A DNA stretch of 64,000 bases from Mycobacterium sp. GTDB taxonomy: Bacteria > Actinomycetota > Actinomycetes > Mycobacteriales > Mycobacteriaceae. Below, one piece after another: positions 51,848-56,595 of this stretch. Every line of letters begins with the position of its first letter. Positions within the stretch are counted from its first letter, which is position 1. The stretch lies in NCBI GenBank assembly GCA_020438905.1, contig JAGQTQ010000048.1, positions 43,867 to 107,866 on the forward strand. Reading direction: 5' to 3'. The position numbers and the translations under genes were made by a program. The notes beneath the pieces are model-generated. The model was not told the origin of the DNA. It did no database searches and worked only from the letters and a program-made list of their open reading frames with translations.

Positions 51848-51870
51848 TATAGTGATGTACGTTGTGATGT
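51848..51870 (+). promoter_or_regulatory. vapB promoter with direct-repeat operator
   Basis: TATAGT (51848-51853) is a good -10; GTGATGT is repeated at 51852-51858 and 51864-51870, a 12-bp period, right up to the ATG. Antitoxin binding here would block transcription, the usual autoregulation of type II modules. Confidence 0.55.
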
Positions 51871-52137
51871 ATGCGGCGCACCAATATCTACCTGGACGAG
51901 AAACAAACGGCCAGCCTCGACAGGTTGGCCGATCAGCAGGGCGTGTCCCGCGCTGAGCTCATTCGCCAACTATTGGATCGCGCCCTGAACGACGCCGATG
52001 ACAGCCTTACTGCCGACTTACGGGGGATCGAGGATTCATTCGGGATTCTGCGCAACGTTCACGATGTAGACGAACCCGACCGTCGGCCGGGAACCCGCGA
52101 GGAGCACCTCGAGCGGATGTGGCGCGGTACGTCGTGA
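51871..52137 (+). CDS. vapB: VapB-type ribbon-helix-helix antitoxin
   Basis: 88 aa. The N-terminal RHH DNA-binding fold is RRTNIYLDEKQTASLDRLADQQGVSRAELIRQLLDRAL; the acidic tail (ADDSLTADL, DVDEPDRRPG) would wrap the toxin. It neutralises the PIN-domain toxin whose start codon overlaps its stop. Which numbered VapB this equals is not decided. Confidence 0.88.
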   Translation: MRRTNIYLDEKQTASLDRLADQQGVSRAELIRQLLDRALNDADDSLTADLRGIEDSFGILRNVHDVDEPDRRPGTREEHLERMWRGTS

Positions 52138-52523
52138 TTCTGATCGACTCCGACATCCTCATTGCCCACCTCCGCGGGGTAGCGGCGGCGCGCGATTGGC
52201 TCCTCGACTCCCGGCGAGACGGTCCGTTGGCGATCAGCGTGGTGTCGATCAGCGAACTGGTGGGCGGAATGCGCAGCACACAGCGGCGCGAGGTGTGGCA
52301 ATTGCTCGCATCTATTCGGGCCGAACCGGTCACCGAGATCATCGCGCGACGGGCCGGCGACTTCATGCGCCAGTACGGGCGGAGCCATTCCGGTATCGGC
52401 CTGGGTGACTACCTGGTCGCTGCGACCGCGGACGTCAAGGGCTACGAACCGGCCACGCTGAACGTGGAGCATTTCCCGATGTTCAAGAACTTGTTGCCGC
52501 CGTTCAACACCCGAACGAACTGA
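52134..52523 (+). CDS. vapC: VapC-type PIN-domain ribonuclease toxin
   Basis: 129 aa from a GTG at 52134 that overlaps the vapB stop (GTGA); GTG 52119 is a weaker alternative. The acidic PIN residues are Asp in LIDSDILI, Glu in SISELVGG and Asp in IGLGDYLVAAT. VapC toxins cut tRNA or rRNA; the target here is unknown. Confidence 0.9.
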   Translation: MILIDSDILIAHLRGVAAARDWLLDSRRDGPLAISVVSISELVGGMRSTQRREVWQLLASIRAEPVTEIIARRAGDFMRQYGRSHSGIGLGDYLVAATADVKGYEPATLNVEHFPMFKNLLPPFNTRTN

Positions 52524-52597
52524 AGCGCACCCGAGCGATCCGCGATAGTCGATTCCGTCCCGTTCGCCGCCGCCCGCACCGTGGAGGGGAGGGGAGG

Positions 52598-52831
52598 CTA
52601 GAGCTGACCCAGCGGCCGGCACACGTTGGACAACGGGTTCCAGTACTCACCGGGCCCGCAATCCTCCGCCGGACGCGGCGTCTGGCAGGTGTTGGTGATC
52701 GGATCCCAGAATTGACCGTCGACGCAATTCAGCGGCTCTGCCGAGCCGACACCGGTGCCGAACAGCGACATGACAGTGATGGGGGCGGCCGCCAGCACGG
52801 CGATGGTCGAACGACGCAAGAGATTTCGCAT
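52598..52831 (-). CDS. small secreted protein with two chitin-binding-like cysteine motifs
   Basis: 77 aa from ATG 52831. Signal peptide of about 32 residues ending VGSA. The mature peptide has two copies of a C-x2-G-x-(F/Y)-W-x-P-x2-N-x-C motif (NCVDGQFWDPITNTC and DCGPGEYWNPLSNVC). Such motifs resemble invertebrate/phage chitin-binding fingers. It is the only non-toxin-antitoxin gene between the first two modules and runs against them. Function unknown. Confidence 0.72.
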   Translation of the reverse strand: MRNLLRRSTIAVLAAAPITVMSLFGTGVGSAEPLNCVDGQFWDPITNTCQTPRPAEDCGPGEYWNPLSNVCRPLGQL

Positions 52832-52892
52832 GAACTGATTCTGCCAGGGGACCGTGGAGCAGTATTGCGATACCAAGGCGGGGGCGGCAATC

Positions 52893-52930
52893 GTCTTACA
52901 AATCGTCTGTCTTACAAATCGTCGTACGCT
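52893..52930 (+). promoter_or_regulatory. mazE promoter/operator with 15-bp direct repeats
   Basis: GTCTTACAAATCGTC occurs at 52893-52907 and 52909-52923, a 16-bp period, and TACGCT at 52925-52930 is a -10 placed 6 nt before the ATG at 52937 (leaderless). The repeat is a natural antitoxin-binding site. Confidence 0.55.
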
Positions 52931-52936
52931 GTTGTC

Positions 52937-53170
52937 ATGGGTGACACGATTACGTTCCGGCCAGACGAAGACACCGCGAAGGCTCTGGAGGTCTTGACCA
53001 AGGACGGTACGGCCGTGTCCGCAGCCGTACGATCCGCCCTCATCGAAGCCGCACGGCGGAAGGCCGGCGCGGCAATTCGCGCCGAGGCGGAAAGCCTTGC
53101 CGCAGACGAGTCCGACCGCGCTGAGGCCATGCAGGTGCTGCGCGATATGGAGACACTGCGTGCGTGGTGA
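52937..53170 (+). CDS. MazE-like antitoxin
   Basis: 77 aa. An N-terminal RHH-like DNA-binding part (TITFRPDEDTAKALEVLTKDGTAVSAAVRSALIEAAR) is followed by an Ala/Glu/Asp-rich helix ending EAMQVLRDMETLRAW that would contact the toxin. Paired with the MazF-like protein whose GTG lies 11 nt before its stop. The longer open frame beginning at 52712 is not supported. Confidence 0.85.
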   Translation: MGDTITFRPDEDTAKALEVLTKDGTAVSAAVRSALIEAARRKAGAAIRAEAESLAADESDRAEAMQVLRDMETLRAW

Positions 53171-53471
53171 GGTCTTTCGGTTGCGGGCCCCGCGGGGGAG
53201 CCACGGTCACGAGCAGTCGGGTTCCCGATATGCCGTGGTCGTGCAGTCGGATCAACTTCCACTGTCGACCTGGATGGTTGCGCCGACATCCACGTCGGCC
53301 CGTGCCGCCAGCTTCCGGCCCGAGGTGGAGATCGGCGGCGTGACAACACGGGTGCTTGCCGAGCAAACCGCCGCGGTCGACCCGAGCCGGCTCGGCGAGA
53401 GTGTCGGGTTCCTGAGCTTCGCCGAACTGCGCCGCGTTGACGCGGCTTTACGCATCGTCCTCGATCTCTAA
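53160..53471 (+). CDS. MazF/PemK-family endoribonuclease toxin
   Basis: 103 aa from GTG 53160. RGEVFRLRAPRGSHGHEQSGSRYAVVVQSD is the MazF N-terminal strand-loop (the QxGxRP-type motif reads QSGSRYAVV), followed by WMVAPTSTSA, RVLAEQTAAVDPSRLG and a C-terminal helix VDAALRIVLDL. MazF enzymes cut specific RNA sequences; sequence preference cannot be read. Confidence 0.87.
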   Translation: MRGEVFRLRAPRGSHGHEQSGSRYAVVVQSDQLPLSTWMVAPTSTSARAASFRPEVEIGGVTTRVLAEQTAAVDPSRLGESVGFLSFAELRRVDAALRIVLDL

Positions 53472-53535
53472 AGGCCGCCGCACCGGCACGGGAACAATCG
53501 GCAAGCGATGTCTACAGTTCGTCTACGCCGGTTAA

Positions 53536-53769
53536 ATGGCAGCGGAAACCACAACCGTCCGAGTTCGACGTGCCGATTCTGAGCGGCTGCAATCACTGGC
53601 CAAGGCTCGCCAGATCGCCGTCGTCGACGTCGTGCACGCAGCCATCGACGCCCTGGAGCGGCAGGAGTTCCTGCGGGGGCTCAACGGGGACTACCAGCGC
53701 CTGCGCAGCGATCCCGAACTTTGGGAGCAATACCTCGCCGAGCGTCACGAGTGGGACGCGCTGGCTTGA
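53536..53769 (+). CDS. MazE-like antitoxin
   Basis: 77 aa. RHH-type N-terminus TTTVRVRRADSERLQSLAKARQIAVVDVVHAAIDALERQ and an acidic/aromatic C-terminal tail (PELWEQYLAERHEWDALA) of the sort that occupies the MazF active groove. A 12-bp-period repeat of GTCTAC lies just upstream (53513-53530) as possible operator. The stop is shared with the toxin start (TTGA). Confidence 0.83.
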   Translation: MAAETTTVRVRRADSERLQSLAKARQIAVVDVVHAAIDALERQEFLRGLNGDYQRLRSDPELWEQYLAERHEWDALA

Positions 53770-54101
53770 TCTGGCGGGGTGAGGTCTACCGCGTCGATCT
53801 CGGCCGGCCGGTCGGACACGAGCCGGCCTTTCGCCGCCCGGCGGTGGTTGTATCGGTCGACATCCTCAACAACGGACCGGCCGGCCTGGTGGTCGTCGTC
53901 CCGATAACCACCGTCGGCTACGGCCTGCGAAGCCACGTCGAACTCGACCCGGCCAGCAGCGGGCTGGAGCACATTTCCTTCGCTCGCTGTGACCAACTGC
54001 GGATGGTCTCCGTCGAGCGACTGTCATCCCGCCATGGAATGGCCGGTCCAGAACAAATGCAAGCAATCGACCAGGCACTGCGCTTCGTCCTCGACCTGTA
54101 G
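53766..54101 (+). CDS. MazF-family endoribonuclease toxin
   Basis: 111 aa from a TTG at 53766 overlapping the antitoxin stop. IWRGEVYRVDLGRPVGHEPAFRRPAVVVSVD is a clear MazF N-terminus, followed by VVVVPITTVGYGLRSHVELDP and a C-terminal helix MQAIDQALRFVLDL. The S1-S2 loop GHEPAFRRP is complete, so it is probably active. Confidence 0.88.
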   Translation: MIWRGEVYRVDLGRPVGHEPAFRRPAVVVSVDILNNGPAGLVVVVPITTVGYGLRSHVELDPASSGLEHISFARCDQLRMVSVERLSSRHGMAGPEQMQAIDQALRFVLDL

Positions 54102-54285
54102 CGCTCGGCCAGAGGGCGGGTATTTCCGCATTCCGCGGCCGGCTTGGTGTACCGCAACCATGCGGGCCAACCCGCGCCGGCGAAAGGCGGGACGACGGCG
54201 TCGGCGTCTCGGTGCCACTCTCGGCGCCTGATGGGCTGCAACTCGGTGGTCGCAGTCTGCATCCCAAATCGGTACCATCGTAGGC

Positions 54286-54522
54286 GTGAGCAAGCAGATC
54301 GCCGTCCGCCTTCCCGAGGACGTCGTCGAATTCATCGACAACGAAGTCGACCGGAGGCGTAGTGAGAGCCGCGCGTCATTTGTGCTCAAGGCGCTCCAAC
54401 GCGAGCAGCGCCGGCTGATCGCGGCCCGCGATGCAAGAATCCTCGCCGAGGAGGGCAGCGCAGACGATGACTTCGATGCGCTTGCCGCTCGTGCCTCCAC
54501 CTTCGAACTGGATATCGATTGA
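54286..54522 (+). CDS. MazE-like ribbon-helix-helix antitoxin
   Basis: 78 aa from GTG 54286; TACCAT at 54273-54278 fits a leaderless -10. The RHH core is KQIAVRLPEDVVEFIDNEVDRRRSESRASFVLKALQRE and the C-terminus is acidic (EEGSADDDFD). Its stop overlaps the toxin start as TTGA. Confidence 0.87.
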   Translation: MSKQIAVRLPEDVVEFIDNEVDRRRSESRASFVLKALQREQRRLIAARDARILAEEGSADDDFDALAARASTFELDID

Positions 54523-54818
54523 GACCGATCCACATTGCCCAGCTCGACAAGGCCCGCCCGGTTCTGGTCCTGACTCGGGAACTCGTGCGGCCTCACCTCA
54601 CCAGAGTTACCGTCGCACCGATCACAGGAACCGTCCGGGGCCTGTCGACCGAAGTTCCGGTCGGCGTGCGCAACGGACTCGAAAAGGACTGCGTCGTCAG
54701 CATCGACAACATCGCGACGATCCCGGTCGCCGCATTGAGGCGCCAGATCGGGTTCTTTCTGCCGGATCAAGAAGAATCGCTGACAACGGCGATTCATCAC
54801 GCCTTCGATCTCGAATGA
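54519..54818 (+). CDS. MazF-family endoribonuclease toxin
   Basis: 99 aa from a TTG at 54519. The N-terminal strands are RPIHIAQLDKARPVLVLTRE with the KARPVLV motif, then VTVAPITGTVRGLSTEVPVG and a C-terminal helix ending AIHHAFDLE. This short, basic form is typical of actinobacterial MazF9/PemK-like toxins. The dif-like site lies 86 bp downstream. Confidence 0.88.
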   Translation: MRPIHIAQLDKARPVLVLTRELVRPHLTRVTVAPITGTVRGLSTEVPVGVRNGLEKDCVVSIDNIATIPVAALRRQIGFFLPDQEESLTTAIHHAFDLE

Positions 54819-54904
54819 TCAACTTGACTATGGCCCCTCGCGCGCCGCGGGGGTAAAGCAGCTGTTCAACGGGGGTGGGATCAGACCTCGATCACACCAG
54901 CTTA

Positions 54905-54932
54905 AGTTGACATAATGTGGCTTATCGGCAAA
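54905..54932. other. dif: dif-like XerC/XerD recombination site
   Basis: Two 11-bp arms, AGTTGACATAA (54905-54915) and TTATCGGCAAA (54922-54932), flank a 6-bp spacer TGTGGC. On the minus strand this is XerC arm, spacer, XerD arm. The XerD arm TTATGTCAACT matches the E. coli dif arm TTATGTTAAAT at 9 of 11 positions, and the XerC arm at 7 of 11, with ATAA/TTAT flanking the spacer as in known dif sites. It lies in a 433-bp gap without genes (54819-55251); nothing else is seen in that gap. Confidence 0.72.
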
Positions 54933-55251
54933 AACCTGAACTGGGCGAACGGTGAACTGCAGGCCAGAGTGCCCGGCCAGCGGTCCGACGGGTGTCGGAG
55001 CCCCTGCTTCGATCGACTGGCCATGACTTCCTCGTCAAGTCAGACCTCCCGCGGGTGCGAGAACTGTGTGCATGGGTTCCCCACTCAGCGGAGCCGCTAT
55101 GGCGTTCACGCAGTGGGCGTGAAATGACTCGGTTTCCGCCCCCAGCGCCCCCATGGCCGGCCACAGCTAAAACGTCACTGTGACGCTTTGAACGCCGCCG
55201 GCTGAGGGACTCTCGCCGTCATCACCATGCCCGCTATCGCGGTCCACGCCG

Positions 55252-55596
55252 TCAAAGACCCAACCCCCGCCGAAGTCCCCGATCGACGTCGTCCATGATG
55301 TTGGCCGGCAAGTCGCCGATCCGATCCGACAGGTCCGTCTTGTTGAGTGTGATGAGTGCGGTGATGTTGACGACCGAATCGCGCGGTAGCCCCGTTGCTG
55401 CGGCAGGCAGGAACACGTTGCCCGGCATCGCCGCCAAGGCCGTGTTCGAGGTGACCACCGCGGTGAGCACGGTCGCGATACGGCTCGCGTTGTAGGGGTC
55501 GGATTGGATCACCAGCACAGGGCGACGTTTGGCTGGTCGGCTACCGCCCGGCGCTCCCAGATCCGCCCAGTAAAGCTCAGCCCGGCTGATCACCAC
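55252..55596 (-). CDS. mazF6: mRNA interferase MazF6 (Rv1991c-like)
   Basis: 114 aa. RAELYWADLGAPGGSRPAKRRPVLVIQSDPYNASRIATVL and NVFLPAAATGLPRDSVVNITALITLNKTDL follow M. tuberculosis MazF6 (Rv1991c, MazF-mt3) almost residue for residue. MazF6 cleaves pentanucleotide U-rich RNA sites including rRNA. Its start overlaps the antitoxin by 7 nt. Unlike the four modules to its left it is transcribed leftward, away from the second vapBC and towards dif. Confidence 0.92.
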   Translation of the reverse strand: MVISRAELYWADLGAPGGSRPAKRRPVLVIQSDPYNASRIATVLTAVVTSNTALAAMPGNVFLPAAATGLPRDSVVNITALITLNKTDLSDRIGDLPANIMDDVDRGLRRGLGL

Positions 55597-55838
55597 TCGT
55601 CGTCTGCTGCATCCAGGACCCGATGCCCGATGGCTACGGCGACGACCTCCGATTCGTCAGTGGCATCAAGGCGTTCAAGGGCACTGTCGATCCGGCTGGT
55701 CAGGGATTGGGCGTCCAACTCATCCAAGTAGCGCTGCGCGGCTCGGGCGAAAAACTCCGATCGGCTCATGCCGAGTTCCGAGGCGGTCCGGGACACCCGA
55801 TCGAACGTCTCGTCCGAGACGGAGATGGCTGTCTTCAC
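55590..55838 (-). CDS. mazE6: antitoxin MazE6
   Basis: 82 aa, GTG start. KTAISVSDETFDRVSRTASELGMSRSEFFARAAQRYLDELDAQ is the RHH domain typical of MazE6 (Rv1991A); the tail DAADDEW is the acidic C-terminus. TATACT at 55850-55845 and GTATAA repeats lie directly upstream, and the message is probably leaderless. Confidence 0.9.
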   Translation of the reverse strand: MKTAISVSDETFDRVSRTASELGMSRSEFFARAAQRYLDELDAQSLTSRIDSALERLDATDESEVVAVAIGHRVLDAADDEW

Positions 55839-55844
55839 GGTCCG

Positions 55845-55861
55845 AGTATAACTTGGTATAA
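55845..55861 (-). promoter_or_regulatory. mazE6 promoter/operator
   Basis: On the minus strand TATACT (55850-55845) is a -10 placed 6 nt before the GTG. The plus-strand hexamer GTATAA occurs at 55846-55851 and 55856-55861 (10-bp period), a likely MazE6 binding site. Confidence 0.5.
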
Positions 55862-55960
55862 CCGACGGGTGGCCCGCTTCCGCGCCACGAGAGCGACAAC
55901 TCAGGTTTCGGCGTAATCATCTGTCCGCGTCGGTTTGAGCGCGCCGCAGCGGTCCCACTC

Positions 55961-55996: not shown

Positions 55997-56191
55997 GTGG
56001 GCAAGCACTTGGTGGATATTGATGAGCAGGCATTGGAGCTTGCGCGTGCTGAGCTTGGAACAACCACGATCAAGGCGACCGTGAACGCTGCGCTGCACAA
56101 CGCCACATCGGGGCGGGCGAAGCGCACGGCTGCGGCGCTGGACACTCTGGCCTCGGCGAATCTGGACGATCGCGCCGAGGCGTGGCGCTGA
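55997..56191 (+). CDS. vapB: VapB-type antitoxin
   Basis: 64 aa, GTG start. The pattern KHLVDIDEQALELARAELGTTTIKATVNAALHNA, then acidic residues DDRAEAW, is that of type IIA VapB proteins whose RHH fold is shifted to the N-terminus. It overlaps the vapC start by 10 nt. Confidence 0.87.
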   Translation: MGKHLVDIDEQALELARAELGTTTIKATVNAALHNATSGRAKRTAAALDTLASANLDDRAEAWR

Positions 56192-56595
56192 GATTCCTGG
56201 TCGACACCAGTGTGATCAAGCGGCTGGCTCAGCCCGCCGTGCGGCAGGTGGTCGAGCCGCTCGCTGAGGCCGGCGAACTTGCCCGCGCCCGAATCACTGA
56301 TCTGGAAGTCGGATATTCCGCGCGTAACGCAGCCGAGTGGGACACCCTCATGACGGCGCTCGAGATTTTCAAACCCGTTGATACGACGGATGCTCATCAC
56401 CGCCGGGCCCTTCAGGTGCAGCGGCTGTTGGCTCAGCGAATCCAGTGCGGTCGCAAGATCCCCGATTTGCTCATCGCTGCGGCGGCCGAGGATCACGGTC
56501 TCACCGTGTTGCACTACGACACCGACTTCGACCAGATTTCCGCGGCAACCGGTCAGCCCAGTCAGTGGGTGGTGCCTGCCGGCACCGCCGACTAA
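56182..56595 (+). CDS. vapC: VapC-type PIN-domain ribonuclease toxin
   Basis: 137 aa, GTG start. PIN residues: Asp in FLVDTSVI, Glu in ITDLEVGY, Asp in KIPDLLIAAAAE and Asp in DTDFDQI. It is a complete VapC; the RNA target is unknown. It is convergent with htpG, 62 nt apart. Confidence 0.9.
   Translation: MALRFLVDTSVIKRLAQPAVRQVVEPLAEAGELARARITDLEVGYSARNAAEWDTLMTALEIFKPVDTTDAHHRRALQVQRLLAQRIQCGRKIPDLLIAAAAEDHGLTVLHYDTDFDQISAATGQPSQWVVPAGTAD

Follow-up and report, generated by a model that had tools for sequence, protein, structure and literature searches.

A probable dif beside a cluster of toxin–antitoxin genes

What is the dif-like sequence that lies within a cluster of toxin–antitoxin (TA) genes in a Mycobacterium sp. 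contig, and why do the genes gather beside it? We address both questions for the window, the whole 64-kb stretch of contig JAGQTQ010000048.1 that was analysed, in which the sequence in question occupies positions 54905–54932. The first-pass annotation had offered two readings of this site: a chromosome dimer-resolution site, which would place the window at the replication terminus, or an integration site exploiting XerCD. The site is very probably the chromosomal dif, where the copies of the circular chromosome separate after replication. The outer end of its XerD arm is likely to be the attachment site of actinobacterial integrative elements, and the TA genes of the window would be an array of such elements. 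All of the evidence is comparative.

The site as chromosomal dif

The site was resolved as follows:

54905..54932, minus strand (XerC to XerD): dif, with the XerC arm at 54922-54932, the spacer at 54916-54921 and the XerD arm at 54905-54915

On the minus strand the XerC arm reads TTTGCCGATAA, the spacer GCCACA and the XerD arm TTATGTCAACT; the plus strand of 54905–54932 reads AGTTGACATAA TGTGGC TTATCGGCAAA. Since XerC precedes XerD on the minus strand, the upstream TA genes are found on the XerD side. The surrounding gap (54819–55251) holds only overlapping small open reading frames (ORFs) in the ORF list. The proposed 11-6-11 layout is present: the core ATAA-N6-TTAT occurs once in the window, against a mean of 0.02 in shuffled sequences, and the 28-mer has a single match at up to three mismatches in the assembly of this genome, with none in a backwards control. 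No better site was found in this assembly, which comprises 3.69 Mb in 189 contigs and is 84.9% complete, with a second copy possible in the missing part. The reported agreement with the dif of Escherichia coli (9 of 11 positions in the XerD arm, 7 of 11 in the XerC arm) proved correct in a hand comparison, read from XerC to XerD on the minus strand, with the E. coli letters given in an excerpt of PMC3025954.

The site is kept across the genus. Both arms occur with at most three mismatches in 139 of 198 genomes, this one included, and 80 loci from the 138 matching relatives, five of them shorter than 20 kb, were compared with the window, giving 81 loci. These relatives were selected for possessing dif arms, so that the arms are partly fixed by the search, while the spacer was left free; it nevertheless reads GCnACA in 74 of the 81 sites (GCCACA in 34, GCGACA in 30, GCAACA and GCTACA in 5 each), and conservation drops steeply beyond the 28 bp. 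Under a profile of the 81 sites, window included, each dif scores at least 44.3 bits and everything else within about 10 kb scores below 6.

The distance between dif and dnaA spans 38.7–49.6% of the chromosome (median 46.6%) in all 28 relatives measured, out of 32 genomes with a dnaA search; four were omitted owing to different contigs or a missing contig size, and six of the 28 have additional contigs. For GC skew, twenty stretches of 20 kb were sampled on the chromosomes of two relatives, G075 and G009. The skew changes at dif in G075, where the best change point falls between the stretches that begin at 1.878 Mb and at 2.041 Mb (dif at 2.007, antipode at 1.636), and near dif in G009, where the mean passes from +0.018 to −0.017 across dif and the best split lies at 2.285–2.590 Mb, followed by 2.740–2.895 Mb (dif at 2.663, antipode at 3.052). 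On the contig of the window the sign shifts at dif from +0.020 to −0.006, a weak change with just 10 kb on the right side. Single occurrence, conservation, position opposite dnaA and the skew change in relatives thus uphold the dimer-resolution reading. Because the assembly is fragmented, we infer the position of the window at the replication terminus from these relatives.

As far as the excerpts of the two reports go, most arm positions of the site are common with the predicted dif of Frankia alni (PMC3025954) and with the dif of Actinoplanes SE50/110 (PMC3364876). The likeness extends to the length of 28 bp, the 11-6-11 layout with near-identical arms, the position opposite the origin and the skew change; gene arrays beside dif, in contrast, go unmentioned in those excerpts. 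A XerC-like gene in the assembly of the window scores 320.7 bits, slightly below the family cut-off of 335.15, and no XerD was recognised among the recombinase matches examined there. Judging from the family, XerC and XerD would resolve chromosome dimers at this dif.

A conserved gene neighbourhood of dif was sought in 20 loci and rejected, as each gene of the window is common to few of them at most. The gene htpG, considered as a neighbour of dif, was found in 17 of 22 chromosomes and never closer than 242 kb. On the contig, GGGNAGGG occurs 13 times forward and twice in reverse to the left of dif, and twice forward and never in reverse in the 10 kb to its right, numbers too small for a polarity to be read.

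Breakpoints and TA genes at the edge of dif

Similarity between loci breaks off at dif. Flanks were compared up to 5 kb, and the alignment spans dif in 3,223 pairs of loci; at least 60 bp of flank is shared on one side in 81 pairs and on both sides in none. Where the XerD flank is shared, homology past the opposite edge stops within 5 bp in 25 of 28 pairs; where the XerC flank is shared, it does so in 28 of 53.

TA genes are concentrated at the same place. Among 82 relatives, 29 of 152 matches to the MazF toxin family (PF02452) are no more than 10 kb from dif, where 0.53 would be expected in genomes of 5.7 Mb, a count in which related genomes are non-independent and matches on other contigs were scored as far. 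Of these 29, 28 lie on the XerD side, 28 point towards dif and 8 are found within 500 bp of it. For PIN toxins in 12 genomes, 2 of 19 matches begin within 1 kb of dif. The TA cluster at dif is, as judged from such counts, no coincidence, and the dif region is an integration hot spot, apparently of a recombinase other than XerCD.

Joints between units on the XerD side

A recurrent attachment-like site, AAnACGGCGTAnTTT-ACTGGTAACCCGCCATATTCGATTCCGCCGTATTCC, follows the stop codons of MazF genes in the relatives. A profile of this joint, built from nine seeds and iterated, has 83 matches in 46 of the 81 loci, some of those at dif itself spanning the first half only. All 83 lie on the XerD side in one orientation, and reversed sequences yield none. 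A sequence-only model, R1, has 47 matches at E ≤ 0.01 in 22 of 32 genomes; of these, 41 are on the dif contig, 35 of them equally oriented and at most 20 kb from dif on the XerD side, and 6 are on other contigs. On contig G132:C2, both attachment sites lie to the XerD side of a dif-like site that agrees at 18 of 22 arm letters. The dif-like site of G152:C1 agrees at all 22; its XerD side has an attachment site, and the opposite side a very weak match. When named genomes were scanned with a strict version of the site, 40 stretches were found, 38 of them in Mycobacterium, Mycolicibacterium or Mycolicibacter, one in Antrihabitans and one in an Acidobacteria metagenome-assembled genome.

The unit end AATACGGCGTACTTT runs into the XerD arm ACTTGACATAA where it adjoins dif, and into ACTGGTAACC, with which the next unit starts, at joints displaced from dif. 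The joints sit at the outer edge of the XerD arm, and the newest unit adjoins that edge. Empty and occupied versions of the site are found in two relatives: in L046 an old end adjoins dif, and in L056 the same end stands about 1.7 kb off with two joints between. Loci L072 and L105 agree at 91.6% identity over 6.3 kb through dif and diverge beyond; past dif L105 has about 2.9 kb extra, followed by stretches common with L072 at 99.3% (809 bp) and 95.6% (609 bp).

The units between joints (69 measured) range from 0.16 to 8.5 kb. The 105 ORFs predicted in units of up to 3.5 kb include 11 MazF, 8 PIN, 4 Phd/YefM, 2 MazE-like and 2 ribbon-helix-helix (RHH) proteins, other families being represented once or twice each. 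A match of arm types between the two ends of one unit was tried and rejected (p = 0.29; 11 sites dropped because the core was not found, many arms untypable).

A recombinase at the XerD edge, in chromosomes and plasmids

Five relatives (L043, L055, L082, L104 and L111) carry larger occupants. Here the XerD edge is followed, in the direction away from dif, by genes of a tyrosine recombinase (truncated in L055), a helix-turn-helix (HTH) protein and a large third protein. Past the trio, the next attachment match is reached 6.3–11.6 kb from dif, that of L111 covering the unit end only. Homologues of the recombinase with at least 72% identity number six in 33 genomes. Four stand beside dif (G034, G046, G099 and G178, the last with an internal stop and overlapping dif), one stands beside the dif-like site of G152:C1, and one lies about 8 kb from dif in G152:C32, where a 47% homologue is found 0.27 kb from dif.

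Homologues are also present in 193 plasmids of PLSDB, mostly from Streptomyces or Rhodococcus; phages have none at E 1e-20. We fetched 19 recombinase or element-end matches of the plasmid survey, several of them from closely related plasmids. A good dif-like site was defined by at least 18 of 22 arm letters or the core CCGATAA-N6-TTATGT; among 2,400 shuffled 900-base stretches, 9 reach 16 letters and none 18. Such a site precedes the recombinase or element end in 10 of the 19: Arthrobacter FB24, pHiyo8-1, pA, pC, pYJN5-1, pYJN5-2, AT5, pGA1, PD04 and A. agilis.

Two of these plasmids provide a further pair of empty and occupied sites. At the XerD edge of its dif-like site, plasmid pA of Paenarthrobacter ureafaciens AT carries one element twice in tandem, the copies being identical over 4,712 bp. 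AT5 has the same flank (99.86% over 5.6 kb) and the same site, after which come about 50 kb that strain AT has as a circular record apart, pC, with a dif-like site of its own. AT5 retains both dif-like sites with differing spacers; therefore the exchange did not take place in the spacer. The pA element is also represented by a circular record of 4,712 bp, pD, but the tandem copies repeat every 4,714 bp, a difference of 2 bp at the joint, so pD may have arisen in assembly.

The 50 kb of pC and AT5 (L231; L232/L233), a circle in one strain and integrated in the other, contain mercury-resistance and triazine-degradation genes. The large third protein of the trio is annotated as "recombinase XerD" on several plasmids (L224 5429-6946, L223 1696-3258, L221 5521-6918); its L043 homologue has no Pfam family above the cut-off and no NCBIfam match, and the name looks misleading.

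The TA genes of the window

The XerD side of the window contains five units and one vestige of a joint:

51856..52506, plus strand: VapBC-like unit, RHH antitoxin 51871-52137 (PF01402) and PIN toxin 52119-52523 (PF01850)
52535..52831, minus strand: unit with a small ORF, 52598-52876, that has a chitin-binding-like match (PF01607, E 8.7e-6)
52537..52567, plus strand: weak vestige of an attachment-like site between two units, oriented as in relatives
52907..53467, plus strand: unit with a putative antitoxin ~52940-53170 and MazF toxin 53157-53471 (PF02452, E 3.5e-17)
53508..54104, plus strand: unit with a putative antitoxin 53536-53769 and a MazF toxin ORF 53721-54101 (PF02452, E 5.6e-23)
54259..54818, plus strand: dif-proximal unit, antitoxin 54286-54522 (ParD/RHH-like, weak) and MazF toxin 54519-54818 (PF02452, E 1.4e-9), towards dif

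The putative antitoxins at ~52940–53170 and 53536–53769 match no antitoxin family. Each of the five blocks is found again on the XerD side of dif at other loci, with orientation preserved and with order and distance varying. The third, 52907–53467 (about 560 bp), recurs in ten other loci, and the other four in 2–4 loci each, some partially: 54259–54818 in L072, L078, L085 and L105; 53508–54104 beside dif in L085 and L107 and in part in L078 and L110; 52535–52831 in L047, L072, L078 and L113; and 51856–52506 in L085 and L106. The vestige is the best R1 match of the whole assembly, yet at E 0.19; the profile matches 52538–52559 at E 0.034. The XerD-side TA genes of the window look like an old array with one joint faintly visible, and these units would have arrived by the same route as those of the relatives.

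Two pairs, at most candidate members of the array, lie on the XerC side:

55252..55838, minus strand: MazF toxin 55252-55596 (PF02452, E 2.1e-22) and RHH antitoxin 55590-55838, towards dif
55997..56595, plus strand: VapBC-like pair with PIN toxin 56182-56595 (PF01850, E 1.6e-12), pointing away from dif

At the first of these, block 55268–55863 is common to the window and the XerC side of L080.

A model of unit accretion at dif

The side, orientation and edge of the arrays in relatives, like dif itself, emerge from the comparison of loci, and the following model is proposed for their origin. A family of actinobacterial integrative elements would use the outer end of the XerD arm, with the adjoining bases, as its attachment site. 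Each arriving unit would recombine at the last bases of the arm through a shared core of approximately AGT-AAA, and would be placed between the intact dif and the previous occupant. Repeated insertion would yield an array confined to the XerD side, with the newest unit beside dif. Full-size elements encode the tyrosine recombinase, the small HTH protein and the large third protein, the recombinase of this trio being the presumed inserting enzyme and a circle the putative intermediate. Most units are small, often a TA pair, and would need mobilisation in trans. Taken further, the model describes an actinobacterial cassette-capture system built on dif, in which a dedicated family of tyrosine recombinases uses the outer edge of the XerD arm, in dif and in the dif-like sites of plasmids, to insert both elements and TA cassettes that are non-autonomous; we favour this wider reading with some reserve.

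If the model holds, every replicon would offer the same docking place, one that is under selection, is never lost and imposes a single orientation on the units. Genes could be captured beside an essential site without harm to dif, and the TA genes would protect the arrays from loss. The clustering of TA modules at dif in the genus would be explained, and the XerD side of dif would be where to seek recently acquired genes in these genomes. The dif-like sites of plasmids are seemingly used alike, which predicts a traffic of TA cassettes between plasmids and chromosomes.

Tyrosine recombinases are known to build tandem arrays by repeated insertion at one attachment site. The arrays described here similarly reuse one attachment site, and self-moving and small units have common ends; a recombinase gene stands at the attachment site in five relatives and several plasmids, and empty and occupied versions of the site are seen in L046/L056 and in pA/AT5. 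They differ in the target, the XerD edge of dif, which serves in chromosomes and in dif-like sites of plasmids. Integrons are likewise one-sided arrays of small units in one orientation with a fixed anchor. The present arrays, in contrast, are anchored at dif, have genes mostly directed towards the anchor, and showed no IntI-type integrase above the cut-off and no folded site. Mobile DNA that exploits XerCD with the dif region as attachment site is known as integrative mobile elements exploiting Xer (IMEX).

Two described systems come close, to judge from excerpts of the reports. The dif/pdif modules of Acinetobacter (PMC12907356) also are rows of small dif-linked modules, some of them TA pairs, but lie between two dif sites in alternating orientation, whereas here there is one dif and none else within 10 kb. 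Legionella LME-1 (PMC9765430) uses the dif region as an attachment site, dif being kept and its neighbourhood variable, but 22 bp of dif are part of the element and an altered second dif remains after insertion; no second dif is seen here, and the joint lies at the outer end of one arm. The open-access literature, with subscription papers mostly outside it, yielded no account of such arrays at a mycobacterial or other actinobacterial dif, queries with the joint and dif letters included.

Contrary evidence and alternative explanations

Several observations weigh against the model. In the window, joints are unrecognisable save for the one weak match (E 0.19), the usual unit end is absent before dif, and no recombinase match was found on the contig. 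Among the relatives, 35 of 81 loci lack a profile match, and 6 of the 41 chromosomal R1 matches lie elsewhere, three of them in the other orientation. G146:C2, which accounts for four of the six off-chromosome matches, has no dif-like site in the stretches fetched. Two attachment-like sites in G031:C1:2504937-2506617 (L126) lie 2 Mb from dif with no dif-like site near; this second place is perhaps a displaced array or an integrated plasmid. Seven further recombinase homologues (41–48% identity), in several genomes, are found away from dif. Among the 19 plasmid matches, five have a degraded site with a chance-level score or a site with a 7-base spacer (Rhodococcus M8-20, pCZY, USK10, Pseudonocardia and SB3094), and four have no dif-like site (M. 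chubuense, pD, Streptomyces NBC_01240 and M. gordonae). Finally, TTTACTGGTAA of the attachment site equals the XerC arm at 9 of 11 positions, a resemblance that could reflect participation of XerC.

The last observation also speaks for an alternative in which the units exploit XerCD, as IMEX or dif modules do: each would bring a dif-like site, be inserted at dif by XerCD through exchange in the spacer, and later lose the second site by decay. It would account for dif as the anchor of the arrays and for the dif-like sites on plasmids of relatives. Half-sites are slightly commoner than in reversed controls, with 3 against 0 XerD half-sites within 300 bp and 18 against 10 within 10 kb, 40 against 28 XerC half-sites within 10 kb, and 3 against 0 instances of the XerC arm plus spacer over the same distance. 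However, neither a whole second dif nor a remnant rises above reversed or shuffled controls, by profile or by mismatch count, in about 10 kb of the 81 loci, and the two flanking dif-like sites that characterise dif modules are not seen there. The joints coincide with the outer end of the XerD arm and not with the spacer, and the retention of two sites with different spacers in AT5 is unlike spacer exchange. We regard this alternative as unlikely, and the integration site exploiting XerCD put forward in the first-pass annotation is, as worded, unsupported.

Much less probable is an integron-like route, with units recombined as folded single strands in the manner of attC. Such a route fits the arrays, whose mostly single-function units share one orientation and a fixed anchor, and the joint holds short inverted repeats; against this, seven of eight folds (four sites, both strands) are no better than shuffled sequences, the remaining one having a z of −2.16, and a hairpin site of the attC type was rejected. 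The trio recombinase scores 44.9 bits against the integron-integrase family TIGR02249, whose cut-off is 265.

Slightly more improbable still is a terminus that merely tolerates insertions, with untargeted horizontal accumulation of TA genes and units alike through shared descent. Plasticity near the terminus is well known, flanks differ between most species, and related genomes are non-independent. Such a process is at odds with the strictness of side and orientation, seen in 83 of 83 joints and 28 of 29 MazF matches, the joints within a few base pairs of the edge of dif and the same units in another order and distance. Least credible is a plasmid-type Xer site brought to the window by an integrated element in place of the chromosomal dif: other contigs of relatives have dif-like sites and the assembly is incomplete, but GCCACA is the commonest chromosomal spacer while the extra sites examined have other spacers, no better site is present in the assembly, and the skew changes sign, if weakly, at the site. 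Attachment at the outer end of the XerD arm is the preferred explanation.

Other dif-like sites and a second recombinase

Second dif-like sites occur in relatives, mostly on other contigs, with spacers unlike GCnACA (TAGCGA in three):

G140:C8:35463, second dif-like site
G184:C1:153772, second dif-like site
G033:C99:12136, second dif-like site
G142:C30:24621, second dif-like site
G151:C2:49130, second dif-like site
G124:C3:61778, second dif-like site
G152:C1:128108, second dif-like site

The differing spacers may prevent Xer fusion of these replicons with the chromosome. A partial duplication of dif is seen in L049: just past the XerC edge, about 29 bp off, the flank contains a second copy of the XerC arm with most of the spacer. 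A second XerC-like tyrosine recombinase of about 380 amino acids is encoded on the XerC side in L043, L054, L057, L064 and L083, roughly 0.4–3.5 kb from dif and reading away from it, and may represent another family of elements at the opposite edge.
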